Below, piece by piece: positions 24,447 through 53,528 of a DNA stretch of 64,000 nt (position 1 is the stretch's first letter; the number at the start of each line of letters is the position of its first letter). Both the position numbers and the translations under genes were made by a program. A model generated the notes under the pieces. It was not told the origin of the DNA. It searched no databases and worked only from the letters and a program-made list of their open reading frames with translations. Source of the stretch: Phytohabitans maris (GTDB lineage: Bacteria; Actinomycetota; Actinomycetes; Mycobacteriales; Micromonosporaceae); assembly GCF_031085175.1 (NCBI RefSeq), contig NZ_JAVHUY010000001.1, forward strand, positions 62,001 to 126,000. Reading direction: 5' to 3'.

Positions 24447-24475
24447 TGAGGCGGGCGCGCACTACGCTTGCCGTC

Positions 24476-25104: not shown

Positions 25105-26484
<1,380 letters not shown>

Positions 26485-26550
26485 CCCCCAAGATCGATTC
26501 TCCGGACCGGACTACCGCGACACCCGCCTCGCCCTCCGCGGTCCCACAAG

Positions 26551-26602
26551 CAGATCTTGGAGAGTTAGGGCGGCTATAGGTGCCCCAACTCTCCAAGATC
26601 TG
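26551..26602. terminator. 52-bp palindrome between convergent glyQS and XdhC-like genes
   Basis: Perfect arms CAGATCTTGGAGAGTT and AACTCTCCAAGATCTG with an inner GGGC..GCCC. Its design (GATC near both ends, ~52 bp, 3' of a gene) resembles repeat family D, but the sequence differs. It lies 66 bp after the glyQS stop and can act as a bidirectional terminator. Confidence 0.75.
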
Positions 26603-26624
26603 CGCGATGGCGGGCGGGCGTGCG

Positions 26625-26738
26625 CGGCGGAGGGTGAGGCCGCGGGAACGCACCCCAAGAAACGCTCCGCTGCGCTCCACGTTTCCCCCGGGGCCCCCGC
26701 GCAACGGTCTGGACCACCGCGGACGTCGCGGTAGCTCG
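26625..26738 (-). repeat. intergenic repeat family A, full copy (A5)
   Basis: Starts GCGGCGGAGGGTGAGGCCGC, contains CACCCCAAGAAACGCTCCGC and GCAACGGTCTGGACC, and ends GGACGTCGCGGTAGCTC. It is the near full-length inverse of A2 (18941-19050), which defines both ends of the repeat. Confidence 0.8.
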
Positions 26739-26756
26739 AACGTGGTCGAGGCGGGG

Positions 26757-27281: not shown

Positions 27282-27304
27282 CAACCCAAACTACCCTGGT
27301 TGCC

Positions 27305-28426
27305 GTGACTGGAACGTTGACGTTGGGTCGGCACGTGATCGACCCGCCCGTGGTGCTGGCGCCGATGGCCGGCATCACCAACGTGGCGTTCCGCCAGCTC
27401 TGCCGGGAGTACGGCGCGGGCCTCTACGTCTGCGAGATGATCACGACGGTGGCCCTGCATCACCGCAATCCGAAGACGGAACGGCTGATCCAGTTCGGGG
27501 CCGGCGAGCACCCGCGCAGCATGCAGCTCTACGGCGTCGACCCGGAGATCACGGCGAAGGCCGTGCGCCGGGTGGTGGACGAGGGGTTGGCCGACCACAT
27601 CGACCTCAACTTCGGGTGCAGCGTCAAGAAGATCACCAGCAAGGGCGGCGGCTCGGCGATCCCGTGGAAGCGGCGGCTCTTCGGCGCGATCGTGCGCGCG
27701 GCGGTCGACAACGCCGCCGGGCTGCCGGTCACCGTCAAGATGCGCAAGGGCATTGACGACGATCACCTGACCTACGTCGAGGCGGGGCTGACCGCGCAGG
27801 ACGCCGGTGTCGCCTGGGTCGCTCTCCACGCGCGTACCGCCGCGCAGCGCTACTCCGGCGCCGCCGACTGGGCGGCGATCGCCACGCTCAAGCAGGCGCT
27901 CGACGTGCCGGTGCTGGGCAACGGTGACATCTGGGAGGCCGACGACGCCCTGCGCATGGTGGCCGAGACCGGCTGTGACGGTGTCGTGGTCGGGCGGGGC
28001 TGCCTGGGCCGCCCATGGCTCTTCGCCGACCTGGCCGCCGGGTTCGCCGGCCGCTCCGAGCGCGTACTGCCGACGCTGGGCGAGGTCGCCCGGATCATGC
28101 GTCGCCACGCCGAGCTGCTGGTCGACTGGTGGGGCGCCGAGCGGGAGGCGGTCACCGACTTTCGCAAGCACGTCGCCTGGTACCTGAAGGGCTTTCCGGT
28201 CGGCGCCGAGCTGCGCCGCTCGATGGCGATGGCCTCGTCCTTGGCCGAGCTCGACGACCTGCTGGGCAAGGTCGACGCGGGCGAGCCGTTTCCGACGGAC
28301 GTCCTGGGCCAGCCGCGCGGCCGCACCAACGCGCCGGCCCGGGTCGTCCTGCCGTACGGGTGGCTCGACGACCGCGACTCCGAGGCCGTCCCGGACGACG
28401 CCGAACACGACGACTCCGGCGGCTGA
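27305..28426 (+). CDS. dusB: tRNA-dihydrouridine synthase DusB
   Basis: An FMN-dependent tRNA-dihydrouridine synthase of 373 residues that reduces uridine in the D-loop. TIM-barrel motifs: V-V-L-A-P-M-A-G-I-T-N-V-A-F-R, D-L-N-F-G-C-S-V-K-K-I with catalytic Cys105 (Ser in place of the more common Pro after Cys), V-K-M-R-K-G-I, H-A-R-T-A-A-Q-R-Y-S-G and G-N-G-D-I, then a C-terminal helical domain. The start is GTG 27305. The acidic tail (residues 355-373) is probably disordered. The dusB-ppdK-dgt neighbourhood is common in actinobacteria. Confidence 0.94.
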   Translation: MTGTLTLGRHVIDPPVVLAPMAGITNVAFRQLCREYGAGLYVCEMITTVALHHRNPKTERLIQFGAGEHPRSMQLYGVDPEITAKAVRRVVDEGLADHIDLNFGCSVKKITSKGGGSAIPWKRRLFGAIVRAAVDNAAGLPVTVKMRKGIDDDHLTYVEAGLTAQDAGVAWVALHARTAAQRYSGAADWAAIATLKQALDVPVLGNGDIWEADDALRMVAETGCDGVVVGRGCLGRPWLFADLAAGFAGRSERVLPTLGEVARIMRRHAELLVDWWGAEREAVTDFRKHVAWYLKGFPVGAELRRSMAMASSLAELDDLLGKVDAGEPFPTDVLGQPRGRTNAPARVVLPYGWLDDRDSEAVPDDAEHDDSGG

Positions 28427-28617
28427 CGCGCGAAACTGCGCATGGGATCGTTCCCAGAAACGGGCGTGAACGTCACACCCCTGGCAGGTGTGCGCATGGT
28501 CACCGAACCCTCCCGAGACGTGGCGTATCTCGCTTAACCTTCGCCCACCATTGGGTACTAAACCCTCTTGGGATTAGACCGTTCGTTCAACGGTGAACGC
28601 GGTGGCAGGAGGCTCTG

Positions 28618-31323: not shown

Positions 31324-31336
31324 ACCGCCCGGTGCC

Positions 31337-31370
31337 CGCCGGCCGGGGAGGGCGTGCTCCCCGGCCGGCG
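31337..31370. terminator. bidirectional hairpin between ppdK and the Roadblock operon
   Basis: Perfect 14-bp arms CGCCGGCCGGGGAG (31337-31350) and CTCCCCGGCCGGCG (31357-31370) with a 6-nt loop, centred between convergent stop codons. It suits both strands; no U-tract. Confidence 0.8.
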
Positions 31371-31384
31371 AACGGATCGGGCGC

Positions 31385-31756
31385 TCAGACGTCGAGGTTT
31401 TCCTCGATCTGGCGCAGCTGGTGGCGGGCCATGGCGAGGTTGGCGCGCCCCTTGAGCAGGGCCACGTAGAGGAACAGCCCCTTGCCCGCGCGACCGGTGA
31501 GCGGCCGGATCAGGTGGTACTGGGTGTCCAAAGTGATCAGGATGTCTTCGATCGCTTCCTTGATGTTGAGCATCTCCATGGCGCGCAGCTTGGCCCGCAC
31601 CACGTCGGTGTTGCCGGCGGCCGCGACGGCCAGGTCGAGGTCCTTGGTGCCGCCGATCGTGCCGAGCGCCATACCGCTGGTGTAGTCGGCCAGCGCGGCG
31701 CCGATGGCACCGTCGATCTGCATGATTTCCTTGAGGCTCGCGTCCATGTCAGCCAT
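31385..31756 (-). CDS. Roadblock/LC7-domain protein 1
   Basis: A 123-residue single-domain Roadblock/LC7 protein. The start M-A-D-M-D-A-S-L-K-E-I is followed by I-D-G-A-I-G-A-A-L-A-D-Y-T-S-G-M-A-L-G, the N-terminal helix-strand of the fold, and the central strand-helix L-D-T-Q-Y-H-L-I-R-P-L. Such proteins act as regulators or scaffolds for small GTPases (MglB/CvnB type). The C-terminus A-N-L-A-M-A-R-H-Q-L-R-Q-I resembles that of the protein at 33434-33862, showing they are paralogues. It is last in the minus-strand operon. No GTPase gene lies in the window. Confidence 0.85.
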   Translation of the reverse strand: MADMDASLKEIMQIDGAIGAALADYTSGMALGTIGGTKDLDLAVAAAGNTDVVRAKLRAMEMLNIKEAIEDILITLDTQYHLIRPLTGRAGKGLFLYVALLKGRANLAMARHQLRQIEENLDV

Positions 31757-31812
31757 GGGGTGGTGCACTCCTGTCCTGTGTGGATTGTCTTCTGTGGATG
31801 CTCGTGGGCCTG

Positions 31813-32379
31813 CTATCGGCTGATCGTGGCCATGGGTGTGCGGCGGGCGAGGCGGTGCCGGTCCGGGGCGTTCGCCGCCGGGGCGGGCGTCGGCGGCTGG
31901 GTTATCCCGCGACCGTCGACGATCCGGCCGAGGCGGGCCGCGACCTGGCGGGCCTCGTGGTGCAAGCGGGCGAGGTTGGCGTGCGGGCGGGTGAGCACGG
32001 TCAGCAGGCCGCCGCGGCCCGCCGCGTACACGACGACGGAGCCGCCGTCCGCCTGGATCACCGTCTCGCGCAGGTGACCCTGCTGGACGGTGGCGGCGAA
32101 CCGCTGCCCCAGCCCGAGGCTGGCGGCGGAGAGCGCGGCTACGGTTTCCGCCTCCACGCCACCGGGCTCCCGTTCCCTACCGGTGCCCATGTCGCTGGCG
32201 ATGAGCATGCCGTCGGGGGGGGGGGGGGCCGCCCCGGGGCGGGGGGGCGGGCGCGGCCGCCGCGCCCCCCCGGGGCCCATGTCGCGGGCGCTGAGCATCC
32301 CGGGGGGGCCCCCCCCCCCCGCGCCGGCGATGTCGGGCAGCCGCTGCCGCAGCGCCCGTAACTCGGCGATCCCGTCCAA
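31813..32379 (-). CDS. Roadblock/LC7-domain protein 2, with suspect insert
   Basis: Of the 188 residues, the first ~17 (M-D-G-I-A-E-L-R-A-L-R-Q-R-L-P-D-I) and the last ~130 read as a Roadblock protein: D-G-M-L-I-A-S-D-M-G-T-G, A-A-S-L-G-L-G-Q-R-F-A and G-G-S-V-V-V-Y-A-A-G-R-G-G-L-L-T-V-L. Between them is an extra ~35 residues of Gly/Pro/Arg that contains a corrupted second copy of the D-G-M-L-I-A-S-D-M segment. The DNA there is long G and C runs, so the true protein is probably ~150 residues. The start is TTG 32379, supported by an AAGGGGG site 8 bp upstream. Confidence 0.7.
   Translation of the reverse strand: MDGIAELRALRQRLPDIAGAGGGGPPGMLSARDMGPGGARRPRPPPRPGAAPPPPDGMLIASDMGTGREREPGGVEAETVAALSAASLGLGQRFAATVQQGHLRETVIQADGGSVVVYAAGRGGLLTVLTRPHANLARLHHEARQVAARLGRIVDGRGITQPPTPAPAANAPDRHRLARRTPMATISR
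32205..32325. other. G/C homopolymer tract with a degenerate 90-bp duplication
   Basis: Runs of up to 14 G and 12 C lie inside the Roadblock 2 gene. CCCATGTCGCTGGCGATGAG (from 32186) recurs 90 bp later as CCCATGTCGCGGGCGCTGAG (from 32276), with every difference towards G or C. The insert is in frame. This looks like a consensus or assembly error more than biology. Confidence 0.7.
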
Positions 32380-32415
32380 GGATCATCCCCCCTTCGGTGA
32401 TGGTGTTCCGTTGCG

Positions 32416-33429
32416 TCACAGGGCTTCCAGGCCCGACCGGATGCGGGTGAGCAGGGCCTCGTCCAGCTCGTCCCGGAACGCGGGCGGTGGATCCGGGCCG
32501 GACGGCTGCTGTCCGGGTGTGCGGCGCGGCAGCCGGGCCTCGGTCTGGTTGGTGCGGCCACCACCGCCGGCCGCCACCGCGCGGCGCGAGTTGGTCGCCC
32601 GCCGGGGGACCGGCGGCGATGGCTTCGCGGTGGGGCCGGGTGTGGCGCCGGCCTTCGGCTCCGCGGGCTTCTCTGTGCCGGCCGCGGTGCCAGCCTTCGG
32701 CTCCGGCGGCTTTCCTGTTCCGGGCGGCGCGGCCGCCTGCGGCTCGTCCGGCGGCGCGGCCGTGACCAGGCCGGCGGCCGCGAGGCGGCGCAGCTCCAGC
32801 AGGGTCGTGTATCCGGCCCGCCCGACCAGCCGCGCGAGGTCGGTCGCGCTCCGCTGGCCGTCACAGTGGACGATCAGCTCCCACTGCGCCCCGCTGAGCA
32901 CCAGCCGCGGCACCGGCGCGCGCGGGACCGCCACCAGCGGCCCGGTGTCCACATCGGAGGACGGGTGGGCGTCGTCGAGCAGCCTGCGGCGGCGGGTCAG
33001 CTCGCGGCCGAGTACCCCGGCGTCGACCTGGCAGACCGGGCCGAGCGGGTGCCGCTCGCCGGCCCCGAACCGGACCCGGACGGGTGCCGGCGACAGCACG
33101 AAGAACGCCGCGTCGTAGATCGCCCCGAGCGTGCAGAGCTCGAGCTCGCCCTGGGTGAGGTGGCCCTGCGCGACCAGCAGCGGGCCGACCTCGTCGCCGC
33201 TGGCGGCGGCCGCTTCCCACACCTGCCCGGGCAGGCGGCCGGAGGTGGTGAGCAGTTCGCCAACACCCGGCGAGGCCGGGGACTCGACGTAGCTGACCCA
33301 GCCGTCGGTCAGGTACACGATGCCGCCGGGCTCGCCCTCGACGTGCAGCGCTCCGGTCTCACCGGCGCCGGCGAGCTGGGTCAGGGTACGGCGTGGGAGC
33401 ACGGCCTTGCCCGTGCGCGCGGTCTTCAC
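32416..33429 (-). CDS. DUF4388 and winged-helix protein of the Roadblock operon
   Basis: A 337-residue protein. Residues ~1-110 match the DUF4388/PatA-like N-terminal pattern (L-A-G-A-G-E-T-G-A-L-H-V-E-G-E-P-G-G-I-V-Y-L-T-D-G-W-V-S-Y). Residues ~150-225 look like a winged helix (L-S-G-A-Q-W-E-L-I-V-H-C-D-G-Q-R-S-A-T-D-L-A-R-L). The rest is a Pro/Lys/Ala-rich linker with two K-P-x-E-P-K-A-G repeats and a final acidic helix (F-R-D-E-L-D-E-A-L-L-T-R). It starts at GTG 33429, four bases after the upstream Roadblock stop, and precedes Roadblock 2 by 36 bp. DUF4388 proteins often accompany Roadblock and GTPase genes. Confidence 0.75.
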   Translation of the reverse strand: MKTARTGKAVLPRRTLTQLAGAGETGALHVEGEPGGIVYLTDGWVSYVESPASPGVGELLTTSGRLPGQVWEAAAASGDEVGPLLVAQGHLTQGELELCTLGAIYDAAFFVLSPAPVRVRFGAGERHPLGPVCQVDAGVLGRELTRRRRLLDDAHPSSDVDTGPLVAVPRAPVPRLVLSGAQWELIVHCDGQRSATDLARLVGRAGYTTLLELRRLAAAGLVTAAPPDEPQAAAPPGTGKPPEPKAGTAAGTEKPAEPKAGATPGPTAKPSPPVPRRATNSRRAVAAGGGGRTNQTEARLPRRTPGQQPSGPDPPPAFRDELDEALLTRIRSGLEAL

Positions 33430-33433
33430 CGCC

Positions 33434-33862
33434 CTACCGGCCGGCGCTGGGGACCGGAGCGGCGGCCGCGCCCGAGCCGGCCGGGACACCGGCCAGCCCG
33501 TCGGCGAGCTGCCGCAACTGCCTGCGGGCCATCGCCAGGTTGCCCTGGGCCCGGTCCAGCCACAGATAAAGCACGAGCCGGCTGTCGAAGACCGTGTGCA
33601 CCTGCTGGATCAGGTGGTAGCCGTCGAGCGTGGTGATGATGATGTCTTCGACGCGGTCGCCCGGCCGCGCCGACGCGAACGGGGCACCGGTGGCCGCCAC
33701 GTTGACGATCTCGGCGGTGCCGGCCCAGGTGGCGTCGGGGTCGTCGGTGGGGGCCCGCCCAACCGCGCCGACGGCGAAGCCGGTCGTGTGGTCGATGATG
33801 CTGGCGCCGATGGCGCCATTGATCGCCATCGCCTGCGCGAGGCAGTCGTCAATGCCGGACAC
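33434..33862 (-). CDS. Roadblock/LC7-domain protein 3
   Basis: First gene of the operon, 142 residues. M-S-G-I-D-D-C-L-A-Q-A-M-A-I-N-G-A-I-G-A-S-I-I-D-H-T-T-G-F-A-V opens the fold. T-L-D-G-Y-H-L-I-Q-Q and R-L-V-L-Y-L-W-L-D form the central part. The end, G-N-L-A-M-A-R-R-Q-L-R-Q-L, is nearly that of Roadblock 1, so the operon arose by duplication. The last 20 residues are Ala/Pro-rich. It starts at GTG 33862 with GAGGAG about 9 bp upstream. A regulatory or scaffold role is inferred from the family. Confidence 0.85.
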   Translation of the reverse strand: MSGIDDCLAQAMAINGAIGASIIDHTTGFAVGAVGRAPTDDPDATWAGTAEIVNVAATGAPFASARPGDRVEDIIITTLDGYHLIQQVHTVFDSRLVLYLWLDRAQGNLAMARRQLRQLADGLAGVPAGSGAAAAPVPSAGR

Positions 33863-34193
33863 TGCAATAGCTCCTCGGCCCGGAGGAGCGCTCGCTACCC
33901 AGTCCGGCCAGGTGGGTGTCGAGCTCCGGGCGTAGTTATGTCGACCAGCAGCCGCCACGCCGGTCCGGTCGTTGTCGCGCCAGCACGTTACCGCGCGCGG
34001 CCGCCCGAGTACGGCCGGCGATCGGCCAGCGAATCTCGGATGATCGGCGGTTGCCACTCGGCCCCTCCCGGGGTCACGCGTACCGGCGGCACCGGGGATG
34101 ATGATCCTGGGCGTAACGTGGTCGTCACTTTGGCGTCGTCTGGCGATAAGGCGTCGCCGGACGACAACTGGGTACAAATCGGGAGGCATACCT
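33863..34193. other. 331-bp divergent promoter region with a leader hairpin
   Basis: Lies between the Roadblock operon and the VOC gene, which point away from each other, so it must hold both promoters. No hexamers stand out. The one clear structure is a hairpin at 34135-34165, arms GTCGTCTGGCGA and TCGCCGGACGAC with one mismatch, ending 28 bp before the VOC start. No gene is supported here. Confidence 0.6.
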
Positions 34194-34544
34194 ATGGGCA
34201 GCCGCTGGGAGAACCTGGTCGTCGATGCGCTGGATCCGGCGCGCCTCGCGCGCTGGTGGGCCGAGGCGCTCGGCTACCAGATCACCTACGAGCGGCCCGA
34301 CGAGGTGGAGATCCGCCGTACGCCCGAGGAACTGCCCGGTTTGATCTTCGTGCCCGTCCCGGACGCCAAGGCCGGCAAGAACCGCCTGCACGTCGACCTC
34401 CGCCCCGCCGACCAGGAGGCCGAGGTCGAGCGCCTGGTCAACATGGGCGCCCGCCACGTCGACGTGGGCCAGGGCAACGCCGCCTGGGTGGTCCTGGCCG
34501 ACCCCGAGGGCAACGAGTTCTGCGTCCTGAAGCAGCGCGGGTAG
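34194..34544 (+). CDS. VOC-superfamily glyoxalase-like protein
   Basis: A 116-residue single-domain protein with the beta-alpha-beta3 repeat: L-V-V-D-A-L-D-P-A-R-L-A-R-W-W-A-E-A-L-G-Y and then R-L-H-V-D-L-R-P-A-D-Q-E-A-E-V, with L-A-D-P-E-G-N-E-F-C-V-L at the end. This is the glyoxalase_6-like branch abundant in actinobacteria; His and Glu positions compatible with a metal are present (H-V-D and G-N-E-F), but the substrate is unknown. ATG 34194 follows GGGAGG. Confidence 0.88.
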   Translation: MGSRWENLVVDALDPARLARWWAEALGYQITYERPDEVEIRRTPEELPGLIFVPVPDAKAGKNRLHVDLRPADQEAEVERLVNMGARHVDVGQGNAAWVVLADPEGNEFCVLKQRG

Positions 34545-34597
34545 GACCCCGCCGCTCGCTCCGCTCGGCGAGGGCCCGGCGGCGATAGAGTCAGGGC

Positions 34598-35803
34598 GTG
34601 ATCGAGGCCGAGCGGTTCGTGCCCGAGCCGCGCAAGGACACGGGACACGGGCGCAGCCCGTTCGAGCGGGATCGGGCGCGGGTGCTCCACTCGGCGGCGT
34701 TCCGCCGGCTGGCCGCCAAGACCCAGGTGCACACCGCCGGCTCCGACGACTTCCTGCGCACCCGGCTGACCCACTCGCTGGAGGTCGCGCAGATCGCCCG
34801 GGAGATGGGTGCCCGGCTGGGCTGCGACCCGGACGTGGTCGACGTGGCCGGGCTCGCCCACGACCTCGGGCATCCACCGTTCGGCCACAACGGCGAAGAC
34901 GCGCTCGACGCCGTCGCGCGGGAGTGCGGCGGCTTCGAGGGCAACGCGCAGACGCTGCGCGTACTCACGCGGCTGGAGGCCAAGGTCGACGGCGCCGGCC
35001 TCAATCTCACCCGGGCCTCGCTCGACGCGACCTGTAAATATCCCTGGCCGCGCCGCCCGGGGCGGCGCAAGTTCGGCGTGTACGCCGACGACGCGGAGAT
35101 CTTCGCCTGGGTGCGCGCGGGGGTGGCGGGGGAGGAGCGGTGCCTGGAGGCCCAGGTCATGGACTGGGCCGACGACGTCGCCTACTCGGTGCACGACGTC
35201 GAAGACGGCGTGCACGGCGGCTACATCGCGCTCGGCCGGCTGCTGGTCGACGCCGACGAGCGCGCGGCGCTCTGCGCGGACGTGTCGGCCGCCTACTCCG
35301 CCGAGACCCCCGGCGACCTGGCCGAGGTGCTCACCGGCCTGCTCGCCGACCCCGCGCTCGCGCCGCTGGCCGGATACGACGGCAGCTACCGTGCCCAGGC
35401 CGCGCTCAAGGGCGCGACGAGCGTGCAGATCGGGCGCTTCGTGGCTTCCGCGGTCGAGGCCACCAAGGAGGCCTCGGGGGACGGGCCGCTGCGCCGGTAC
35501 GACGCGGACCTGGTCGTACCGCGCCTGATCCGGGCCCAGTGCGCGCTCCTCAAGGGGATGGCCCTGCGCTACGTGATGCGCCGTGAGGGCGCCGAGATGT
35601 GGTACGAGCGGCAGCGGGAGATCCTCGCCGACCTGGTCCGGGCGCTGGCGGCGCGGGCGCCGGACGGGTTGGACCCGATCTTCGCGCCATTGTGGAAGGC
35701 CGCGCCGGACGACCCGAGTCGGCTTAGAGTGGTGATCGACCAGGTGGCCTCCCTGACCGACCCCGCCGCCGTCGCCTGGCACCAGCGACTGACCGGAGGC
35801 TGA
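34598..35803 (+). CDS. dgt: deoxyguanosinetriphosphate triphosphohydrolase (HD domain)
   Basis: The 401-residue dNTP triphosphohydrolase removes tripolyphosphate from dGTP and keeps dNTP pools in balance. HD-domain metal ligands are present: R-L-T-H-S-L-E-V-A-Q-I-A, then G-L-A-H-D-L-G-H-P-P-F-G-H-N-G-E, and a later Asp in M-D-W-A-D-D-V-A-Y-S-V-H-D. The N-terminus (R-A-R-V-L-H-S-A-A-F-R-R-L) is diagnostic. The start is GTG 34598. In related genomes dgt is usually followed by dnaG; here a FAD reductase follows after 5 bp, so the core order is broken at this point. Confidence 0.94.
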   Translation: MIEAERFVPEPRKDTGHGRSPFERDRARVLHSAAFRRLAAKTQVHTAGSDDFLRTRLTHSLEVAQIAREMGARLGCDPDVVDVAGLAHDLGHPPFGHNGEDALDAVARECGGFEGNAQTLRVLTRLEAKVDGAGLNLTRASLDATCKYPWPRRPGRRKFGVYADDAEIFAWVRAGVAGEERCLEAQVMDWADDVAYSVHDVEDGVHGGYIALGRLLVDADERAALCADVSAAYSAETPGDLAEVLTGLLADPALAPLAGYDGSYRAQAALKGATSVQIGRFVASAVEATKEASGDGPLRRYDADLVVPRLIRAQCALLKGMALRYVMRREGAEMWYERQREILADLVRALAARAPDGLDPIFAPLWKAAPDDPSRLRVVIDQVASLTDPAAVAWHQRLTGG

Positions 35804-38695: not shown

Positions 38696-41600
38696 CTAGT
38701 TGACGTTGATGGTGAACGTTGTCGTCGTGTTCCGGATGTTCTGGACGTTGTTGCTGAACCGCAGGTTGTTGAAGGTCACCGAGCCGCGCACCGGACCCTC
38801 GCCGGGCTCGGGCAACTCGTTGGCCCAGATGCCGAAGCCGGACTTGGCGTCGTACGCGTCACCGCTGCGCTGCGCCCCCGAGATGGAGACGTTGGTGAAG
38901 ACGGTGTCCGCCACCGGGAACAGCGGCTGACCGTTCACGTAGTCGGTCTGGAACATGATGCCGTGGTACGTCGGGTCGACGATGTCGACGTTGCTGACCC
39001 GGATCCCCTGGAACACCTTCGTTGCCGAGTAGACCCAGATGCCGGGGAAGGTCTGCGCGCCCCAGAAGTGACCACCGGACCGGACGATCGACAGCCCGTC
39101 GAACACGGTCGGCGGGTCGGCGCCGAAGCCGTCCATCGGGATGCCGAAGTCGAGCGAGCTGATGGTGACACCGGAGTACACCAGCGTATCCGCCACGTGG
39201 ATGTTGCGGAACGTGTTGCCCAGCCCGCCGTAGACCGCGACACCGGCGGCCCGCCAGGTCAGGATCGACGTGAGGTTTTCGAACACGTTGTCCCGCTGGG
39301 CCCCGCCGCCGCCGTCCGTGGCCGCGAAGAGCGCGAAGCTGTCGTCGCCGGACGCCCGGGACTCGTTGTTGCTGACCAGGTTGCCCGTGCTGCCGTTGGT
39401 CATGTTGATGGCGTCCGCGAACCCGTTCCGGATCCGGTTGTTGCGGATGGTCATGTTGTCGGTGTTGAGTCCCCAGTAGAGGCACATCTGGTGCTCGGCC
39501 CAGATCCCGTCGATGGTGATTCCGGAGACGTTCTGCAGGTCGAAGACCTTGCCCGGCCCGTCGTTGCGGGCGGTGTAGTTGCCGAAGTACGAGAAGCCGG
39601 TGAAGACCGAGCCCGCCGCCGCGTTCTCCACGCGGAAGCCGACATCGGTGTTCTCCTGGTTCTGCGGCGCGACGAACCGGCTGTACCAGGCGCCGGCGCC
39701 GACCACACGCACGGCCTTGCCGTACACCTGGAACTTGCTCGACGTCGGGTAGTCGCCGGCGGGTAGGTAGACGCCGACCAGGTTGCCGGTGGTGTCCATC
39801 CGTACCCGGTCGAGCGCGTTCTGCACGTCCTGGTGGGTGAAGCCGGTCGGTGTGGTGTACCGCGCCGGGTCCGGGTTGCCCACCTGCGAGACCTGCTCCG
39901 TGCTGACGAAGTCGATGGCGAACGTCCCGCTGTTCGCCGCGTCCTTCTGCAGCTTGATCCGGCTGCCGGCGGGCACGGTCGAGTTGAGGAAGATGTTCGC
40001 CTCGTCGTAGATGTGCCGCGGGCTCCCCGCGCCCGGCGAGTTGCCGGGGCCGGCCTCCGCGCCGTACAGCCACGCGTACTTCGAGGTCAGCGGGATCGCC
40101 TTGTGGAACACGTCGTTGACGTACACGTTGAGCGTGCTGGTCGTGCCGCCACCGCCGGCGGAGTCCGGGATGGAGAAGCGGGTGACCAGCGTGTTGGTGT
40201 CGCCGCGGGTGGTGAACTGCACGTACGCGCCGTTCTGGTTGAGCGTGACCGCCCGGCGGCCGGAGGCCTCACCGGCGAGGTCGCCGATCGTCCGGTTTGG
40301 ACCGATGACCGCCGCACCGCCGCCGACCGTACCCTCCTCCGCCTCCAGGATGTCGAACGGCATGTTGGCGCCGCGACCCACGAAGAGCGGCCGCTCGCTG
40401 GTGTTGTTGGCCTGCTTGACCGGCAGCTCGTTGGCGTCGCCCGCGAGCACGACCCGGACCGTGTACCGGCCGTTGCCGGCGGTCCACGTGCCGAGGTTGA
40501 GCACCGGTGTGGTGGCGCCAGCCGCGATCGCGCCGCTGTACGAGCCGGTGAGCGTCCGCACCGCCGTACCGGAGTCGCCCAGTACGGTCAGCGTGACGCC
40601 GTGCGCGCCGGCCGCCGAGGCGATGTTGCCCTGGTTGCGGATCGACGCGGTGAACGTGACGGTGTTGCCGTTCGACGGGTTGTTCGGCGTCCAGCCCACC
40701 GCCGCGGCCACCAGGTCCGAACTGGACACCGGAGTGACCACAAGGGACGTGGGGCTGGTGAAGGAGTTGTTGGCGTCGTTCTGCTCGATGACGTCGCCGT
40801 CCTCGTCCACCTTGGCGGTCACCTGGTAGGTGCCGGCGTCGCGTGGACCGATGTTCGCCGAGACCGTGGCCGAGGCGCCGGCCGCGAGCCCACCGACGGC
40901 GGCGGTGCCGGCGAGCGTCGTACCCAGGTAGAAGTTGACGTCCGTGGCCCCGGAGGCCGCGCTGCCCGCGTTGCGCACGGTGGCGGAGAGGGTGATGGCA
41001 CTGGTCTCCACCGGCGCGGCCGGGCTGGACGTGATGCCGGTGACGGTGAGGTCGGGGTTGGGTGCCGGCGTGCCGATCACCTGGAACTCCGCCACCTGCC
41101 CGCCCGGTGCCCCGGAGTTGGCGGTGAAGCGCAGTTGCACGTCCGCGACGGTCGCGGTGACCGGGATCGTCACGGTGTTGCTGGCGGCCGGGTTGAACGT
41201 GTACGTCTGCGCCGACACCAGGTTGCCGAAGCCGGACGCGCTCTGCTCCCGGCCGAGCACCTGCACCGTCTGCGTACGGGTCCCCCAGATCGGGTCCGGG
41301 TTGAGCCGCAGCACGACCGAGCTGATGCTCGCGTTCGCGCCGAGCTGCACGGTCAGCGTGCCGGGGAAGCCGTTGGACTCCCAGTACGTGCCGACGTTGT
41401 CGTCGTTGGCGTTGGTCGGGACGTACGTGTGCACGTGGCCGGACTCGGTGATCGGCTTGCCGACCGCGAGGTTGGTGCCGCCGGTCGGTCCGCCCGGCCG
41501 GGTGACGGTGTTGCTGTTGGCGGACTGGTTGCCGGCGGCGTCCCGGGCCCGCACGTGGTACGAGACCGTGGTGCCGTCCGGCTGGTTGTCGGTGAACGTG

Positions 41601-42685
41601 GTGACGTTTCCGGCCACGCTCGTGCGGAGCTCGTTGTTGGCGTAGACGTCGTATGCCGTGACGCCGACGTTGTCGGTCGAGGCGCTCCAGGTGAGCCGGA
41701 TCTGCCCGGTGGCCGGCTGGGTGTAGGCGAGGTTGCCGGGCACGCTCGGCGGCTGGGTGTCACCGGTCGCCGGGCCGTAGACCTCCAGCTCAGAGACCTG
41801 CCCGGCCGGCCAGCCGGTGTTGGCGGTGATGTTCAGCCGCAGGTACCGGGTCGTGGTCGCGGTGAAGTCGATGGTCACGGTGTTGCCGCTCGCCGGGTTG
41901 AAGACGTACCCGGCGGAGGCGACCAGCGTGCCGAACGACGATCCGTTGCCGCTCGACTGCACGGTCAGTGTCTGGGTGCGGGTCTCCCAGCCGGCCGGCA
42001 GCTTGAGCACGAGCTGGTTGACGCTCACCGACGAGCCGAGGTCCACCTGGATCCACTGTGGAAACGCGTTGTTGGCGCTCTCCCAGTACGAGCCCTGGTT
42101 GGCGTCGTTGGCGTTGCCGCCGGGGAAGCCGCCCTGGGTGCTGCTGACCTGGATCGCCTTGCCGGCCGCGAGGTTGGGCCCGGCGGCCGCGACGGCGAAG
42201 ACGTCGAGCGCGGAGAGCTGTGCCGCTGGCGCGCCCGTGTTGGCGGTGACGTCGACCCGCACGTACCGGGCGGTGGTGGCGGCGAAGTCGATCGTCACGG
42301 TGTTGCCGTTGCCCGGCGCGAACGTGTACGCCGCCGAGGAGACGATCGTGGCGAACGTGCTGCCGTTCGGGCTCCCCTGCACGGAGAGCGTCTGGGTGCG
42401 CTGGCTCCAGCCGGCCGGAAGCCGGAGCCGCACCTGGTCGATGGAGCGGCTGGCGCCCAGGTCGACCTGCGCCCACTGGGGGAAGGCGCCGGAGCCCTGC
42501 CAGTAGGTGGCCTGGTCGCCGTCGGTGAGGTTGGCGATGGGGAACGAGGCGGCGGTGGCGCTGGCCGACGCGGTGCGTCCGGCGGCGAGGCTGGGGCCGG
42601 CGGCGGCCTCGGCGGGCGTCGCGACCGCGACCCCCGCCACCAGCATTACGGCGGCGACGAGTGCTCTTGCGGATCTTCGGGACAT
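38696..42685 (-). CDS. secreted GH87 alpha-1,3-glucanase with carbohydrate-binding modules
   Basis: A 1329-residue exported protein. Signal peptide to about residue 29 (T-P-A-E-A-A-A-G). Three discoidin-like modules (about 30-165, 170-305, 402-540) with Y-W-Q/E and V-D-L-G motifs, a fibronectin III domain (about 312-398), two CARDB-like domains (about 545-770), then a right-handed beta-helix. In the helix, A-D-A-I-N-M-T supplies Asp1091 and A-S-G-D-D-S-F supplies Asp1114/Asp1115. The +23/+24 spacing equals the catalytic triad of known GH87 enzymes (Asp1045/1068/1069 in Paenibacillus AglFH1, from memory). Expected role: cleaving alpha-1,3-glucan of fungal walls or dental-type glucans. It stands alone with its own promoter. 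Confidence 0.9.
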   Translation of the reverse strand: MSRRSARALVAAVMLVAGVAVATPAEAAAGPSLAAGRTASASATAASFPIANLTDGDQATYWQGSGAFPQWAQVDLGASRSIDQVRLRLPAGWSQRTQTLSVQGSPNGSTFATIVSSAAYTFAPGNGNTVTIDFAATTARYVRVDVTANTGAPAAQLSALDVFAVAAAGPNLAAGKAIQVSSTQGGFPGGNANDANQGSYWESANNAFPQWIQVDLGSSVSVNQLVLKLPAGWETRTQTLTVQSSGNGSSFGTLVASAGYVFNPASGNTVTIDFTATTTRYLRLNITANTGWPAGQVSELEVYGPATGDTQPPSVPGNLAYTQPATGQIRLTWSASTDNVGVTAYDVYANNELRTSVAGNVTTFTDNQPDGTTVSYHVRARDAAGNQSANSNTVTRPGGPTGGTNLAVGKPITESGHVHTYVPTNANDDNVGTYWESNGFPGTLTVQLGANASISSVVLRLNPDPIWGTRTQTVQVLGREQSASGFGNLVSAQTYTFNPAASNTVTIPVTATVADVQLRFTANSGAPGGQVAEFQVIGTPAPNPDLTVTGITSSPAAPVETSAITLSATVRNAGSAASGATDVNFYLGTTLAGTAAVGGLAAGASATVSANIGPRDAGTYQVTAKVDEDGDVIEQNDANNSFTSPTSLVVTPVSSSDLVAAAVGWTPNNPSNGNTVTFTASIRNQGNIASAAGAHGVTLTVLGDSGTAVRTLTGSYSGAIAAGATTPVLNLGTWTAGNGRYTVRVVLAGDANELPVKQANNTSERPLFVGRGANMPFDILEAEEGTVGGGAAVIGPNRTIGDLAGEASGRRAVTLNQNGAYVQFTTRGDTNTLVTRFSIPDSAGGGGTTSTLNVYVNDVFHKAIPLTSKYAWLYGAEAGPGNSPGAGSPRHIYDEANIFLNSTVPAGSRIKLQKDAANSGTFAIDFVSTEQVSQVGNPDPARYTTPTGFTHQDVQNALDRVRMDTTGNLVGVYLPAGDYPTSSKFQVYGKAVRVVGAGAWYSRFVAPQNQENTDVGFRVENAAAGSVFTGFSYFGNYTARNDGPGKVFDLQNVSGITIDGIWAEHQMCLYWGLNTDNMTIRNNRIRNGFADAINMTNGSTGNLVSNNESRASGDDSFALFAATDGGGGAQRDNVFENLTSILTWRAAGVAVYGGLGNTFRNIHVADTLVYSGVTISSLDFGIPMDGFGADPPTVFDGLSIVRSGGHFWGAQTFPGIWVYSATKVFQGIRVSNVDIVDPTYHGIMFQTDYVNGQPLFPVADTVFTNVSISGAQRSGDAYDAKSGFGIWANELPEPGEGPVRGSVTFNNLRFSNNVQNIRNTTTTFTINVN

Positions 42686-48778: not shown

Positions 48779-49033
48779 ATGCCACAGGAGACGTCCGCAA
48801 CGCGGCTGCGCGCACTGGCGGCCGAGGTGTTCGACGTACCGGCGGAGGAGATCACCGACGGCGCGGCCTTCTACGAGGACCTCGGCGTCGACTCGTTGCA
48901 GAAGGTGGACTTCGTCGTACGGATGGAGCGGCAGCTCGGGCTGAAGCTCACCGACGACGAGGCGGCCGGCATGCGGGACCTCGGCGGGGCGATCACCGTA
49001 CTGAGAAGCCGGGGACTGAGCGTTGGACCGTGA
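48779..49033 (+). CDS. acyl carrier protein
   Basis: An 84-residue discrete ACP. The phosphopantetheine site is D-L-G-V-D-S-L-Q-K-V-D-F with Ser39. Helix 1 L-R-A-L-A-A-E-V-F-D-V and helix 3 fit the four-helix fold. It carries the growing or loaded acyl chain. Its stop overlaps the ketosynthase start by 11 bp, so the genes are translationally coupled. Distinct from the housekeeping fatty-acid ACP, whose genes are not here. It needs a PPTase such as the one at 37.9 kb. Confidence 0.92.
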   Translation: MPQETSATRLRALAAEVFDVPAEEITDGAAFYEDLGVDSLQKVDFVVRMERQLGLKLTDDEAAGMRDLGGAITVLRSRGLSVGP

Positions 49034-50231
49034 CGGCGTCGCGGTGTCCGGCGTGGGCGCGGTCTCACCCGCCGGACTGGGCGTGCACGCGCTGTGGCGC
49101 GCCATCGAGGACCGCCGGGTGCTCACCGGGCCGGTGACGCGGTACGACCTGTCCGGGTACCCGACCCGGCAGGCCGCCGAGGTGCCGCCCGGCGCGGTCG
49201 CGGCGCTCGACTCGCTGGTACCCCCGCACGAGTCGCTGGCCGCCCGCTACCTGGCCGCCGCGACGCTGGAGGCGCTCGGCGACGCCGGGCTGCCGGCACA
49301 CCGGCGGCGCGGGCGGCTGGGACTGTTCGTGGGCACGGTCATGGGTACCCGGCCGCTGCTCGACCGGGCGATCGGGCGCGGACCGCTCGGCGTGGCCGAC
49401 CGGGCCTGGGCCCGCCCCGACGAGCTGCTCGCCGCCGTACGCCAGGTGGTCACAGTGGACGGTCCGGCGGTGCTGCTGGCGCCGGGCTGCTCGGCCGGCA
49501 ACGAGGCGATCGCCGCCGGCGCCGCGGCGGTGGCCTCCGGCGAGGTGGACGTGGCGGTCTGCGGCGGGGCGGACGAGCTTTCGCTGGAGGTGTTCGCGTT
49601 CTTCACGTCGATGCGGGCGCTCGCCGCCGACGCGATCCGGCCGTTCGACGCGGGGCGCCGGGGCACGATGCCGGGCGAGGGGGCGGCGGTGCTCGTGCTG
49701 GAGCGGGCCGAGCGGGTCGCCGCCCGCGGCCGTAAGCCACTGGCCCGGGTGCTGGCTACCGCGTCCGCCGCCGACGCGCACAACCTGACCCAGCCGCACC
49801 CGGACGGCGCCGGCCTGATCGCCACGATCCAGACCTGCCTCGACCGCGCCCGGGTCGAGCCGGACGACGTCGACTGGGTCTGCGCGCACGGCACCGGAAC
49901 GCCGGCCAACGACGCCGTCGAGGCCCGCGCGGTCGCCAAGGCGCTCGGCGGCCGGCGGCGCCCGGTGCTCTCCTCCGTGAAGGGACAGCTGGGCCACGCG
50001 GAGGGCGCGGCCGCCGCGCTGGAGGCCGTCATCGGGGTACGCGCGCTCGCGTACGACCTCGTGCCCGGCAACGTGACGCTCGTCGAGCCGGACCCGGAGT
50101 GTGCCGGCGTCGACCTGGTCGAGCCGGCCGGCCGGCGGGGGCCGGTGCGCCGGGTGCTGAGCCAGGCGTACGGCTTCGGCGGCGCGGTCTGCACCGTGCT
50201 CCTGGGGAAGGGGAACCCCGATGCCCGCTAG
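49023..50231 (+). CDS. beta-ketoacyl synthase, active (KS-alpha-like)
   Basis: A 402-residue condensing enzyme of the FabF/type II PKS ketosynthase group. The full catalytic set is present: Cys156 in L-A-P-G-C-S-A-G-N, His289 in C-A-H-G-T-G-T-P, Lys320 and His325 in S-S-V-K-G-Q-L-G-H-A. It should perform decarboxylative condensation on ACP-bound substrates. The TTG at 49023 is inferred from frame and overlap with the ACP stop. It overlaps the next gene, a degenerate KS, by 11 bp, the pairing typical of KS-alpha with a chain-length-factor partner. Confidence 0.9.
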   Translation: MDRDGVAVSGVGAVSPAGLGVHALWRAIEDRRVLTGPVTRYDLSGYPTRQAAEVPPGAVAALDSLVPPHESLAARYLAAATLEALGDAGLPAHRRRGRLGLFVGTVMGTRPLLDRAIGRGPLGVADRAWARPDELLAAVRQVVTVDGPAVLLAPGCSAGNEAIAAGAAAVASGEVDVAVCGGADELSLEVFAFFTSMRALAADAIRPFDAGRRGTMPGEGAAVLVLERAERVAARGRKPLARVLATASAADAHNLTQPHPDGAGLIATIQTCLDRARVEPDDVDWVCAHGTGTPANDAVEARAVAKALGGRRRPVLSSVKGQLGHAEGAAAALEAVIGVRALAYDLVPGNVTLVEPDPECAGVDLVEPAGRRGPVRRVLSQAYGFGGAVCTVLLGKGNPDAR

Positions 50232-51372
50232 CGTCACCGTCTGCGGCGCCGGCCTACGCCTGTCCGAAGTGGACGACCTGGCGTCGCTCGCCCGCCGCCT
50301 CCGCTCCGCGCCGGCACCCGCGGAGGTACGCCGGTTCGCCGCGCCGGACACCGTGCTCGCCCCGGTGGAGCGGGAGGTCTACGGCCCGGTCGAGCCCCGG
50401 GTCCCGGCCCGCGCCGGCACTCGCGGCCTGCGCAGCCTCCCACACGAGTCACTGCTGGCCCTGGGCGCCGCCGCCAGCACCCCGGGCAAGCAGGGCCCCG
50501 ACGACACGACGGCGGTGGTCTGGGCGAGCTCCACGGCCGGGCTGCCGGAGTACGCCACAGTCTGCGCCGAGGCGTCCACATTGGAGCCAGGGTTCGTCGC
50601 GCCGGCCCTCGGGCCCGCCTCGGCACACAACGGGCCGGCCGCGACCGTCTCGATCCGGCTCGGCCTCGCCGGCCCCAACCTCACCCTCACCGGCGGGGCC
50701 ACGGCCGGCATCTCGGCGATCGCCGAGGCGATGCGGCTCATCGCGGCCGGCGACGCGAGAGCCGCGCTGGTCGGCGCCTCCGCCACCGTGACGCGGTGGA
50801 GCCTCACCGCCGCCCAGGACCACCTCACGCCCGCCGAGGGCGCCGCCTGCCTCGTGCTGGACCCGGCCGGCGGCTCCGGCATCCAGCTGGGCGAGTGCCA
50901 CCGCACCGACCTCGTCCGCGCGACCGCCCGGGTGATCCAGGCCGCCGCGCGGCCGCAGACCCGCCCGGACGGCCTCGTGGTGTCCACATCGGACTTCGGC
51001 CTCGTGGACGCGCTCGCGTCCGGGCAACCGTTTCCGGTCTGGCACGTCGAGCGGGCGCTCGGCGACCTCGGCGCGGCGGGCGGCTTTCTCGCGGTGGTGG
51101 GTGCCGCCGCGCTCTGCGCCGCCACCGGCCCGCTCGCGGCGCCCCGGCCGCTCCCGGATGCCGGGCTGCTCGCGGGGCCCGGGCTGCTCCCGGATGCCGG
51201 GCTGCTCGCGGGGCCCGGGCTGCTCCCGGATGCCGGGCTGCTCGCGGGGGCCGGGCTGCTCGCGGCGCCCGGTGAGCGAAGCGAGCCCAACCCGATCAGG
51301 CCCACGAAAATCCTCGCCCTCGCGGTCGAGCCGTGCGGGAGCACGGCCAGCTTGGAGGTTTCGTCATCGTGA
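50221..51372 (+). CDS. ketosynthase-like protein without catalytic residues
   Basis: 383 residues with a thiolase-type fold, easily aligned to the neighbouring KS. The nucleophile position reads G-G-A-T-A-G (Ala160 for Cys). The H-G-T-G-T motif is gone (V-S-T-S-D-F-G) and the second His motif reads L-G-D-L-G-A-A-G-G. It therefore cannot condense and probably acts as a chain-length-factor-like partner of the KS. Unlike usual chain-length factors it has no Gln at the nucleophile site and is short in the C-terminal half. Residues ~310-345 are three 12-residue repeats encoded by 36-bp DNA repeats. Its stop overlaps the ligase gene start (GTGA). Confidence 0.8.
   Translation: MPASVTVCGAGLRLSEVDDLASLARRLRSAPAPAEVRRFAAPDTVLAPVEREVYGPVEPRVPARAGTRGLRSLPHESLLALGAAASTPGKQGPDDTTAVVWASSTAGLPEYATVCAEASTLEPGFVAPALGPASAHNGPAATVSIRLGLAGPNLTLTGGATAGISAIAEAMRLIAAGDARAALVGASATVTRWSLTAAQDHLTPAEGAACLVLDPAGGSGIQLGECHRTDLVRATARVIQAAARPQTRPDGLVVSTSDFGLVDALASGQPFPVWHVERALGDLGAAGGFLAVVGAAALCAATGPLAAPRPLPDAGLLAGPGLLPDAGLLAGPGLLPDAGLLAGAGLLAAPGERSEPNPIRPTKILALAVEPCGSTASLEVSSS
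51151..51258 (+). repeat. 36-bp tandem repeat, three units, in the KS-like gene
   Basis: Units begin at 51151, 51187 and 51223 with CTCCCGGATGCCGGGCTGCT, the third differing at one base. Each adds L-P-D-A-G-L-L-A-G-P-G-L. Near identity means recent expansion or contraction. Confidence 0.92.
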
Positions 51373-53528
51373 ACAACAACATCGTCGAGCACCTGCTCTC
51401 CGCTGGTAAGCCCGACGCGACCGCGTACGTGGACGCCGGTGGTCAGGTCACGTACGCCGAGCTGGCCCGGGCGGTGCACGCCTACGCGGCGCGGCTGGAC
51501 GGCTCCGCGTTCCGCCCGGGGAGCAACGCGCTGATCGTCGCCGACGACTCGATCGCGACGGTCGTGGCGATCCTGGGCGTGTGGTGGGCCGGTGGCGTAC
51601 CGGTGCCGGTCAGCCCGATGCTCACCCCGGCCGAGATCGAGTTCATCGCGGGCGACTGCTCGGCCACGTACCTGCACGTGGACGAGCGGGCCGAGGAGCG
51701 GTTCCCCGCCAAGGGTGCCCTCGACCTGCCCCGCGGGCGGGCCGACCGGATGGCCCCGTACGACGGTGAGATCCCGCCCCCCGCGCACCAGGGCGACGGC
51801 GACGTGGTGCTGATCCAGTACACGTCGGGGAGCACCGGCCAGCCCAAGGGCGTGCTGCACACCCGGGCCGGCATCGACGGCGTGCTGAGCGGCTTCGGCC
51901 GGATCCTCGCGCTCTCCCCGGCCGACACCGTGCTCTCCACGGCCAAGCTCTCCTTCGGGTACGGCTTCGGCAACTCGCTGCTCTTCCCGCTCGCCGCCGG
52001 CGCCCGTACCGTCCTCAGCGCCGGCCCGCCGGACGTCTTCCGGGTCGCCGCCACGCTCGCCGCCCACCGCCCGACCGTGCTCTGCTCGGTGCCCCGGGTG
52101 TACGCGGCGCTGCTGGAGCGGATCCGCCACGGCGAGGCGCTCGCGCTCGGCTCGCTGCGGCTGGCCGTCTCGGCCGGCGAGCACCTGCCCGCGCCGATGT
52201 GCGGCGAGTTCGCCAGGGTGTGCAGCGCCCCGCTGGTCAACGGGCTCGGCGCGACCGAGGTGCTGCACATCGTGGTGGCCACCAACGGCAGCCGGCCCGG
52301 CTCGACCGGCATCCCGGTACCCGGTGTGCGGATCACCGTCCGCGACGACCAGGGACAGGTCGTGCCGGACGGTGTCGAGGGGCGGCTGCACGTGGCCGGC
52401 GGCTCGGTCGCGGCCGGCTACCTGGACCGGGCCGACGCCACCGCCCGCACGTTCGCCGACGGCGGGGCGTACACCGGTGACATCGTGCGCCGCGCGGTGG
52501 ACGGCGACCTGGAGTACGTCTGCCGCCGCGACGACCTGATCAACGTGGGCGGCTTCAAGGTGTCGCCGTTCGAGGTGGAGGCCGCCGCCCGCGAGGTGGA
52601 CGGCCTCTCCCAGGTCGCGGTCGTGGGCGCCCGGGACACCAGCGGGCTGGAGCAGGCGGTCGCCTACCTGGTACCGGAGAACGGGGTGGACCGCGCGGTG
52701 CTGCGCACGGCGGCGCGGCAGGCGTTCCGGGACCGGCTGCCGGTCTTCAAGCGGCCGGCCGTCATCGAGGTCGTCGACCAGCTCCCGGTCACCTCGACCG
52801 GCAAGCTGGCCCGCTTCAAGCTGCGTACCGGCGAGGTCAACGTGACGCTGCGGGTGCTGCGCGAGGGGCGGGGAGGTAGGTACAGGCGCACGCTGATCTG
52901 CCTGCCGTACGCGGGCGGTTCGGCCGGCTCGTACACCCGGCTGGCCAAGCACCTGCCGGAGTCGTGGCGGGTGGTGGCCGGCGAGGCGAGCCTGCGTGGC
53001 CCGGTCACCGTGGCCGATGTCGCCGACGCGTGGTGGAAGGCGGTCACCCCGTACCTCTCCGCCGGTACCGTCCTCTTTGGACACAGCCTGGGCGCGCTCG
53101 TCGCCGCCGAGGTCGCCAACCGTGCCGGCGCCGGGCTGGAGCCGGCGCACGTGGTGCTCTCCGCCCCGCCGCTGTCCGGCGCGGCCGCCCGGGCGATCCG
53201 CTCGCAGGACGACGCGCAACTCGTCGCCGACCTCACCCGCAGCGGGCTGATGCCACCCACCACGCTCACCGCGGACGAGGTCGGGCGGCTGCTGCTGCCC
53301 CGCTTCCGGCGCGACCTGTCGCTGGTGCCGGAGGAGTGGACGCCAACGCTGGAGACCCCGGTGCACGTGCTGGTCGGCGCGGAGGACACCCTCTGCACGC
53401 TGCCCGGCGTCGCCGCCCGCCTCCGCCCGTCGATGGTCGCGAGTACGCACGTGGTGGACGGCGGTCATTACTTTGTGGTGACCAACCCGGTGCAGACCGC
53501 TGCCGTGCTGGCTGGCCTCTACCCGTAG
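51369..53528 (+). CDS. acyl/aryl-CoA ligase fused to type II thioesterase
   Basis: A 719-residue two-domain protein. Residues ~1-495 are an AMP-forming ligase close to the benzoate-CoA ligase group: I-Q-Y-T-S-G-S-T-G-Q-P-K-G (149-161), S-F-G-Y-G-F-G-N-S-L, N-G-L-G-A-T-E-V, Y-T-G-D and catalytic Lys479 in T-S-T-G-K-L. Residues ~508-719 are a thioesterase with L-P-Y-A-G-G-S-A, G-H-S-L-G (Ser573) and a late G-G-H-Y-F. No carrier domain lies between them, so the ligase may charge the free ACP or CoA and the thioesterase release or edit. The GTGA overlap couples it to the KS-like gene; last gene of the operon. Confidence 0.88.
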   Translation: MNNNIVEHLLSAGKPDATAYVDAGGQVTYAELARAVHAYAARLDGSAFRPGSNALIVADDSIATVVAILGVWWAGGVPVPVSPMLTPAEIEFIAGDCSATYLHVDERAEERFPAKGALDLPRGRADRMAPYDGEIPPPAHQGDGDVVLIQYTSGSTGQPKGVLHTRAGIDGVLSGFGRILALSPADTVLSTAKLSFGYGFGNSLLFPLAAGARTVLSAGPPDVFRVAATLAAHRPTVLCSVPRVYAALLERIRHGEALALGSLRLAVSAGEHLPAPMCGEFARVCSAPLVNGLGATEVLHIVVATNGSRPGSTGIPVPGVRITVRDDQGQVVPDGVEGRLHVAGGSVAAGYLDRADATARTFADGGAYTGDIVRRAVDGDLEYVCRRDDLINVGGFKVSPFEVEAAAREVDGLSQVAVVGARDTSGLEQAVAYLVPENGVDRAVLRTAARQAFRDRLPVFKRPAVIEVVDQLPVTSTGKLARFKLRTGEVNVTLRVLREGRGGRYRRTLICLPYAGGSAGSYTRLAKHLPESWRVVAGEASLRGPVTVADVADAWWKAVTPYLSAGTVLFGHSLGALVAAEVANRAGAGLEPAHVVLSAPPLSGAAARAIRSQDDAQLVADLTRSGLMPPTTLTADEVGRLLLPRFRRDLSLVPEEWTPTLETPVHVLVGAEDTLCTLPGVAARLRPSMVASTHVVDGGHYFVVTNPVQTAAVLAGLYP

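Follow-up and report, generated by a model that had tools for sequence, protein, structure and literature searches.

The DNA analysed here is a 64,000-nucleotide stretch of the genome of Phytohabitans maris (hereafter the window; contig NZ_JAVHUY010000001.1, positions 62,001 to 126,000), which is available as a draft assembly of 9.87 Mb in 95 contigs. The plus strand of the window carries at 48779-53528 an operon of four genes, coding for an acyl carrier protein (ACP), a ketosynthase (KSalpha), a second ketosynthase (KS) homolog (KSbeta) and a ligase fused to a thioesterase (ligase-TE). A first-pass annotation of the sequence had described a free ACP, an active KS with C156/H289/H325, a paired KS that has lost its catalytic residues, and a type II thioesterase (TE) joined to a benzoate-CoA-ligase-like domain, encoded by genes with overlapping ends and lacking a ketoreductase, a cyclase or an acyltransferase, and had proposed a small system that could make a diketide or triketide on an aryl or acyl starter, or modify an acyl group. 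The coordinates and order that it gave are exact, each of these protein assignments is borne out below, and the gene content and residues support such a capacity with an aryl starter. The features are as follows:

48779..49033, plus strand: free ACP of 84 amino acids, serine in a GVDSL motif (Pfam PP-binding, PF00550, 4.5e-12)
49023..50231, plus strand: KSalpha, FabF-type condensing ketosynthase with C156/H289/K320/H325 (Pfam, residues and PDB profiles)
50221..51372, plus strand: KSbeta, catalytically dead KS partner with A160 (Pfam ketoacyl-synt, 3.1e-10; profiles; alignment)
51125..51272, plus strand: 36-base tandem repeat in 3.9 copies inside KSbeta, in frame, in a length-variable loop
51369..52829, plus strand: adenylation domain (residues 1-487), aryl-CoA-ligase-like, motifs FGYGFG and GATEV (TIGR02262, PDB matches)
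52887..53525, plus strand: type II TE domain fused to the ligase, residues 507-709, with a GHSLG nucleophile motif (Pfam Thioesterase, 2.8e-27)

The ACP gene starts with ATG, with GGGGAGAG upstream, and its serine lies in a DSL motif. It is overlapped by 11 bases by the KSalpha gene, which starts with TTG and is itself overlapped by 11 bases by the KSbeta gene (ATG start). The ligase-TE gene (51369-53528) overlaps the KSbeta gene by 4 bases; its GTG at 51369 is most likely the true start, being favoured over that of a longer open reading frame (ORF) at 51333. The genes are under purifying selection, with NG86 dN/dS values against Phytohabitans relatives of 0.08-0.41 in 20 pairwise comparisons covering the ACP, the KS, KSbeta and the adenylation domain, and of 0.15-0.51 in three comparisons of the TE. 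No ketoreductase, cyclase or acyltransferase is present among the eight neighbouring window proteins scanned with Pfam. Type II systems normally have no malonyl transferase of their own and borrow FabD.

The ACP is 58-96% identical across nine Micromonosporaceae loci. KSalpha matches both the N-terminal (5e-28) and the C-terminal (4.8e-27) ketoacyl-synt families of Pfam, and its residues C156, H289, K320 and H325 are kept in 14/14 loci including the window. KSbeta matches the N-terminal family only and has lost every catalytic column, with A160 at the Cys, a gap at the first His, E at the Lys and D at the second His. The Cys column is occupied by A, T, S, P or V in all 14 loci, window included (Cys 0/14), and Cys is equally missing from the active-site column of the Streptomyces KSbeta proteins described below (0/9). 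In classical aromatic chain-length factors (CLF) a Gln stands in place of the active Cys, and this actinorhodin-type mark is found in none of the 14 KSbeta proteins. A KSbeta profile matches FabF-type KSs with E-values from 1.2e-10 and, in the PDB, 9s5h_C (5e-7), 6kxd_B (1e-5, positions 43-328) and 1tqy_B (2e-4), while the best profile match of KSalpha is 9s5h_B and the second-best 6kxd_A. Chains B and C of 9s5h may therefore represent a solved KS pair of a related kind, as these sequence matches suggest; 6kxd is presumably the Iga11-Iga12 KS pair of ishigamide, and its system, which we take to be an acetate-primed polyene pathway with reductases, is unlike the window unit. The 36-base repeat (93% matches) adds roughly 50 residues to a KSbeta loop that, in an alignment of 13 sequences, is shorter and free of the repeat in the 12 relatives. 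The operon thus shows the marks of a minimal type II polyketide synthase (PKS), namely a discrete ACP with its Ser, a KSalpha with Cys-His-His and an adjacent KSbeta without Cys. A different use of the same proteins, in which the KS pair would transfer an aroyl group to the O or N of another molecule with no C-C bond formed, the TE editing the ACP, would need no tailoring partner and recalls the match of KSalpha to the cispentacin acyltransferase subunit AmcF (1.1e-56, 192.5 bits, under the cut-off of 325). We consider it improbable, because the Cys-His-Lys-His set is complete in 14/14 KSalpha proteins, the FabF models outscore AmcF (240 vs 192 bits), and KSalpha and KSbeta match both chain types of 6kxd and 9s5h.

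The ligase domain matches AMP-binding (1.2e-70) and AMP-binding_C (1.9e-12) in Pfam, and its best NCBIfam model is benzoate-CoA ligase TIGR02262 (4.5e-92), with 309 bits, under the curated cut-off of 375. Its PDB matches include the benzoate-CoA ligase 2v7b, which is the top match of the central segment, AuaEII (4wv3) and PqsA (5oe3), AuaEII being farther from it than the benzoate ligases (150 vs 175-184 bits). The pocket motifs are FGYGFGNSL and GATEV in the window and FGYGMGNSL and GATEV in PqsA, where a docking study names Phe209, Gly210, Tyr211, Ala278, Gly279, Gly302, Ala303 and His308 as pocket residues (PMC7593710); the benzoate-CoA ligases 2v7b and 4rlf carry FAYGLGN and GSTEM. FGYGFG is conserved in 14/14 Micromonosporaceae ligases and in 9/10 of the related Streptomyces/Embleya ligases (FGFGFG in AM 4-1-1), and GATE in all 24; in three other ligases the corresponding motifs are AYGLG and GSTE. 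This PqsA-like motif favours an acid that would be ortho-substituted or bulkier than benzoate, although it does not name the acid. The same machinery could instead be primed by another aromatic acid (benzoate, salicylate, 3- or 4-aminobenzoate, hydroxybenzoate) and yield an acetophenone, a 4-hydroxycoumarin or a similar product, as the best NCBIfam model, the 2v7b match of the central segment and a window neighbourhood that leaves the acid undefined would allow. We regard this as unlikely, since the score stays below the TIGR02262 cut-off, the pocket motif departs from the benzoate ligases and fits PqsA, and the related Streptomyces units adjoin amino-aryl supply genes. A pactamycin-like extension of 3-aminobenzoate was considered as well, as a tentative lead.

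The fused domain is a type II thioesterase by its PF00975 match and GHSxG serine, with GHS[LV]GA in 14/14 loci; the Asp and His of its triad were placed by eye. Its role may be either release or editing. EncL of the benzoate-primed enterocin system strips unwanted acetyl groups (PMC4147253), and a TE of this kind would clear acetyl from the ACP while the product leaves by spontaneous cyclisation; fusion with the loading ligase suits such proof-reading, and in aurachin biosynthesis the PKS itself is said to free the quinoline (PMC10295502). In one branch of the Streptomyces units (S1, below) the TE has a second ACP or KSbeta.ACP as its fusion partner, an arrangement that suits release. Editing, which concerns the TE only and is compatible with a polyketide-forming function of the operon, is a real possibility towards which we nevertheless do not quite lean.

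Homologs of KSalpha (E <= 1e-70) occur in 14 of 354 Micromonosporaceae genomes and in 3 of 44 genera, and within these in every genome examined: 6/6 of Phytohabitans, 7/7 of genus g32 and 1/1 of genus g2. The order and direction ACP, KSalpha, KSbeta, ligase-TE are identical in the window and the 13 other loci, and ligase and TE share one open frame in 12 of the 14. In two Phytohabitans relatives the frame is broken within the TE, near 12909 in L029 and near 12500 in L033. The break in L029 falls at a C run, and this locus comes from a PacBio assembly (PMC7692728), so that a sequencing error is likely, if not shown. These interruptions, together with the repeat expansion in KSbeta and its dN/dS, the highest of the four genes in the three closest relatives, might be taken to indicate the decaying remnant of a larger cluster. 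Such decay is very improbable given four intact genes in the window, dN/dS of at most 0.51 in 23 comparisons, the retention of the KS in 14/14 examined genomes of three genera, and the nature of the L029 break. Among 396 sampled genomes of the phylum, one (G512) besides that of the window contained the ligase (E <= 1e-90). A scan of genome contigs gave one relative, and a plasmid search with KSalpha returned matches all below 60% identity; those listed were at 33-36%, and any annotation that they carried was of a general KS.

The comparison of flanks covered ten loci beside the window, the g32 loci L070-L073 standing outside it. In Phytohabitans, L029, L030 and L031 have many neighbours in common with the window, L033 only downstream genes and L034 only one gene. 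Genus g2 (L035) has other genes directly beside the operon (a glycoside hydrolase family 20 hexosaminidase and a pyruvate phosphate dikinase), and the operon there lies between relatives of the window genes at 27092-28426 and 28618-31323, about 17-20 kb from its placement in the window. Such a displacement within a common chromosomal region suggests vertical descent in Phytohabitans and g2 with local rearrangement. Aligned with window positions 24251-35803, the L035 operon sits among relatives of genes lying about 17-24 kb upstream of the window operon. Beside the four genes nothing in the g32 loci L036-L038 matches the window except one ABC-type gene at 35% identity; the neighbours scanned in L036 code for a peptidase M64, an M23 peptidase, a royal-jelly-type protein, a DUF4331 protein and two ABC permeases. 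None of the genes seen nearby accompanies the operon in all three genera, so the unit would seem to consist of these four genes. Elsewhere in the window, 38696-42685 codes for a 1329-residue protein that combines alpha-1,3-glucanase catalytic domains with F5/8 type C domains and CARDB repeats.

Relatives of the unit are present on Streptomyces plasmids. The ligase matches 97 plasmid records at E <= 1e-40, of which 12 were inspected. A KS lies directly downstream in 9/9 inspected matches of at least 45.8% identity (read from ORFs in L058 and L063, where the region has no annotation), and KSbeta was not resolved in Embleya L058. The three inspected matches of at most 38.4% identity have no downstream KS, the Thermus one having been viewed only 300 bases on each side; the other two lie beside box benzoate-catabolism genes and with DAHP synthase and aminodeoxychorismate synthase genes. 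Two branches can be distinguished. The first, S1 (L059, L060, L061, L066, L067), has the arrangement ACP.ligase - KS - KSbeta - ACP.TE, with domains assigned by Pfam in two of the five loci (L059 and L061); the TE is fused to other partners than in the window, in ACP.TE of L059 and in KSbeta.ACP.TE of the S. halstedii unit. The five S1 loci are preceded by a methyltransferase gene, a uracil-DNA-glycosylase-family gene and a third gene, which is annotated as a nucleoside 2-deoxyribosyltransferase in two loci and as hypothetical in three, and phosphotransferase and NUDIX genes come after the unit in all five. The second branch, S2 (plasmid loci L062 and L068, genome locus L041), has the gene order ACP.ligase - KS - KSbeta - ACP - FabG - DAHP synthase and continues in L062 and L068 with genes for a DhbA-like protein, an isochorismatase, a chorismate-binding/amidotransferase fusion and FabI. 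The DhbA assignment is at equivalog level (345 bits, cut-off 300), and the DAHP synthase scores 375 bits, under its model cut-off of 615; in L041 the DAHP synthase was identified by Pfam and an isochorismatase-like ORF by eye only. A set of DAHP synthase, chorismate amidotransferase, isochorismatase and DhbA makes 3-hydroxyanthranilate via aminodeoxyisochorismate, and these supply genes point to an anthranilate-type starter. A relative of the aminoavenalumate diazotase AvaA6, tested in L062, reaches 394 bits (cut-off 975), and the S2 loci may represent an ava-like pathway that has not yet been characterised and uses another starter. L063 carries a FabG-like gene, yet trees place it with S1, and it was assigned to neither branch. 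The control locus L065 has a DAHP synthase gene without a KS, which indicates that DAHP synthase can accompany ligases of this kind outside KS units as well.

Phylogenetic trees were inferred with IQ-TREE (LG+G4, ultrafast bootstrap), and FastTree agreed. In the ligase tree the 14 Micromonosporaceae sequences (bootstrap 98) and the 10 Streptomyces/Embleya sequences (99) are grouped together against three other ligases (100). In the KSbeta tree the 14 Micromonosporaceae and nine Streptomyces sequences each form a clade (100) and unite with a support of 100, on long branches. Both trees point to shared descent of these two proteins.

From the gene content and catalytic residues, the conservation of the unit, and the kinship of ligase and KSbeta with Streptomyces units lying beside aminobenzoate-supply genes, we think it probable, with due reserve, that the operon codes for a minimal type II PKS, aryl-primed and non-reducing, whose product is an aroylacetyl compound or one a single unit longer. 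The ligase domain would adenylate an aromatic acid, the best candidate being an ortho-amino (anthranilate-type) benzoate, an identity to which we give slightly less than an even chance, and the aryl group would pass to the free ACP directly or through CoA. A presumed KSalpha-KSbeta heterodimer would condense the aryl starter with a single malonyl unit or with two at the most, KSbeta acting as the dead partner that sets chain length, and the chain would stay a beta-keto thioester because there is no ketoreductase. The fused TE would either hydrolyse the chain to aroylacetate or clear misprimed ACP; both its role and the number of extensions are inferred. Aroylacetate may then lose CO2 or, given an ortho-amine, close to a quinolone. 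With such a starter, one malonyl unit would lead to dihydroxyquinoline. Two units would lead to 2-methyl-4-quinolone, as in aurachin (PMC10295502). Any naming of the product as 2,4-dihydroxyquinoline, 2-methyl-4-quinolone or aminobenzoylacetate is accordingly tentative, and we doubt it more than the starter.

Several observations weigh against this interpretation. The pocket motif is compatible with any ortho-substituted or bulkier aryl acid, and no genes for aromatic-acid supply were seen among the selected annotated neighbours in the window and the relatives. The S2 units also hold FabG and FabI genes. The likeness of KSbeta to KSs is clear mainly in its N-terminal part: hhalign aligns it with KSalpha over about the first 225 residues only (E 0.0003, probability 39.7), and a structure prediction from two sequences, with a mean predicted local distance difference test score (pLDDT) of 28.8, was not used. 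Finally, in the KSalpha tree, with four other KSs of the window genome as comparators, the two lineages (100 each) form no joint clade: the Streptomyces sequences group with a second Embleya KS (92), and those of the Micromonosporaceae stand alone. The two lineages share about 29-35% identity, against 34-38% to other KSs of the same genome. A sister relationship of the Micromonosporaceae and Streptomyces KSalpha proteins was thus not borne out by the IQ-TREE or FastTree trees. The phylogeny of both KSs, proposed in the first-pass annotation as a check, consequently connects KSbeta to the Streptomyces lineage and fails to connect KSalpha, which may be of other origin. The unit may therefore lack one single origin, and its condensation chemistry is not readable from the Streptomyces units.

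The same annotation had recognised no characterised cluster with this exact set. That claim does not hold for gene content, which is matched by the aurachin rau and the ava/cma clusters (PMC10295502, PMC10777205), that is by known type II PKS subclusters with defined products. The aurachin genes auaB-C-D-E, rauC-D-E-F and sauB-C-D-E share ACP, KSalpha, KSbeta and ligase with the window. Aurachin RE is described with rauC as ACP, rauD and rauE as ketosynthases and rauF as anthranilate-CoA ligase/ACP transferase, lettered in the window gene order (order being compared by lettering only), and the Streptomyces cluster also lists a thioesterase, sauK (PMC10295502). An aryl ligase, ACPs, KS and CLF likewise start avenalumic and p-coumaric acid in ava/cma, where an AMP ligase loads aminobenzoate on an ACP as proposed here (PMC10777205). 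One malonyl unit is added for p-coumarate (cma) and two for avenalumate (ava) (PMC10777205), and two for aurachin (PMC10295502). The ligase-TE fusion of the window is not described in the available accounts of aurachin or ava/cma, which moreover report tailoring or reducing genes (PMC10295502, PMC10777205); none were seen beside the window unit among the neighbours scanned with Pfam. A P450 or Rieske N-hydroxylase was not found among the eight neighbours scanned with Pfam, and the nearest of four genome matches to a UbiA prenyltransferase (C1:166032) lies about 50 kb past the operon end (C1:115528); this absence is not final, as the aurachin genes of Stigmatella are spread over loci (PMC10295502). 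The ava/cma clusters have two ACPs, a reductase, 3-amino-4-hydroxybenzoate (3,4-AHBA) synthases and a diazotase (PMC10777205), whereas a second ACP, a ketoreductase, a diazotase and a 3,4-AHBA synthase are absent from the four-gene unit and its Pfam-scanned neighbours.

The start of the Pseudomonas quinolone pathway (PqsA, PqsD, PqsE) follows the same logic of an aryl ligase, one condensation and a thioesterase, and PqsA shares the FGYG and GATEV motifs with the window ligase. PqsD is of KASIII type and acts on CoA esters, unlike a KSalpha/KSbeta pair with an ACP. The aryl-primed type II PKSs of enterocin and asukamycin differ from the window unit in making chains that are longer or reduced and in their numerous tailoring genes. 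Their starters are benzoate or 3-amino-4-hydroxybenzoate, with a type II TE in starter control (PMC4147253). The aryl-primed type II PKS is thus already known as a kind, and it is the four-gene variant, with its ligase-TE fusion, its lack of tailoring genes and its presence in every examined genome of three genera, that was not found in searches of the open-licence literature.

A survey of four Phytohabitans type strains, in the part available, reports having seen no type-II PKS clusters (PMC7692728); the operon occurs in 6/6 Phytohabitans genomes, among them P. flavus NBRC 107702, one of the surveyed strains. A more speculative proposal, rather doubtful in our view, is that it constitutes a non-reducing, aryl-primed type II PKS, self-sufficient with its four proteins, in the core genome of three Micromonosporaceae genera, making a simple untailored molecule (for instance dihydroxyquinoline, methylquinolone or aminobenzoylacetate) with a conserved physiological or signalling role, with KSalpha/KSbeta where Pseudomonas uses PqsD, and ligase and TE fused for loading and release. 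If true, the operon would rank with the smallest type II PKS units, its four proteins covering starter activation, extension and release. A specialised-metabolite locus is not usually retained by every examined genome of three genera, and this retention opens the question of which simple aryl ketide these bacteria need to direct testing.

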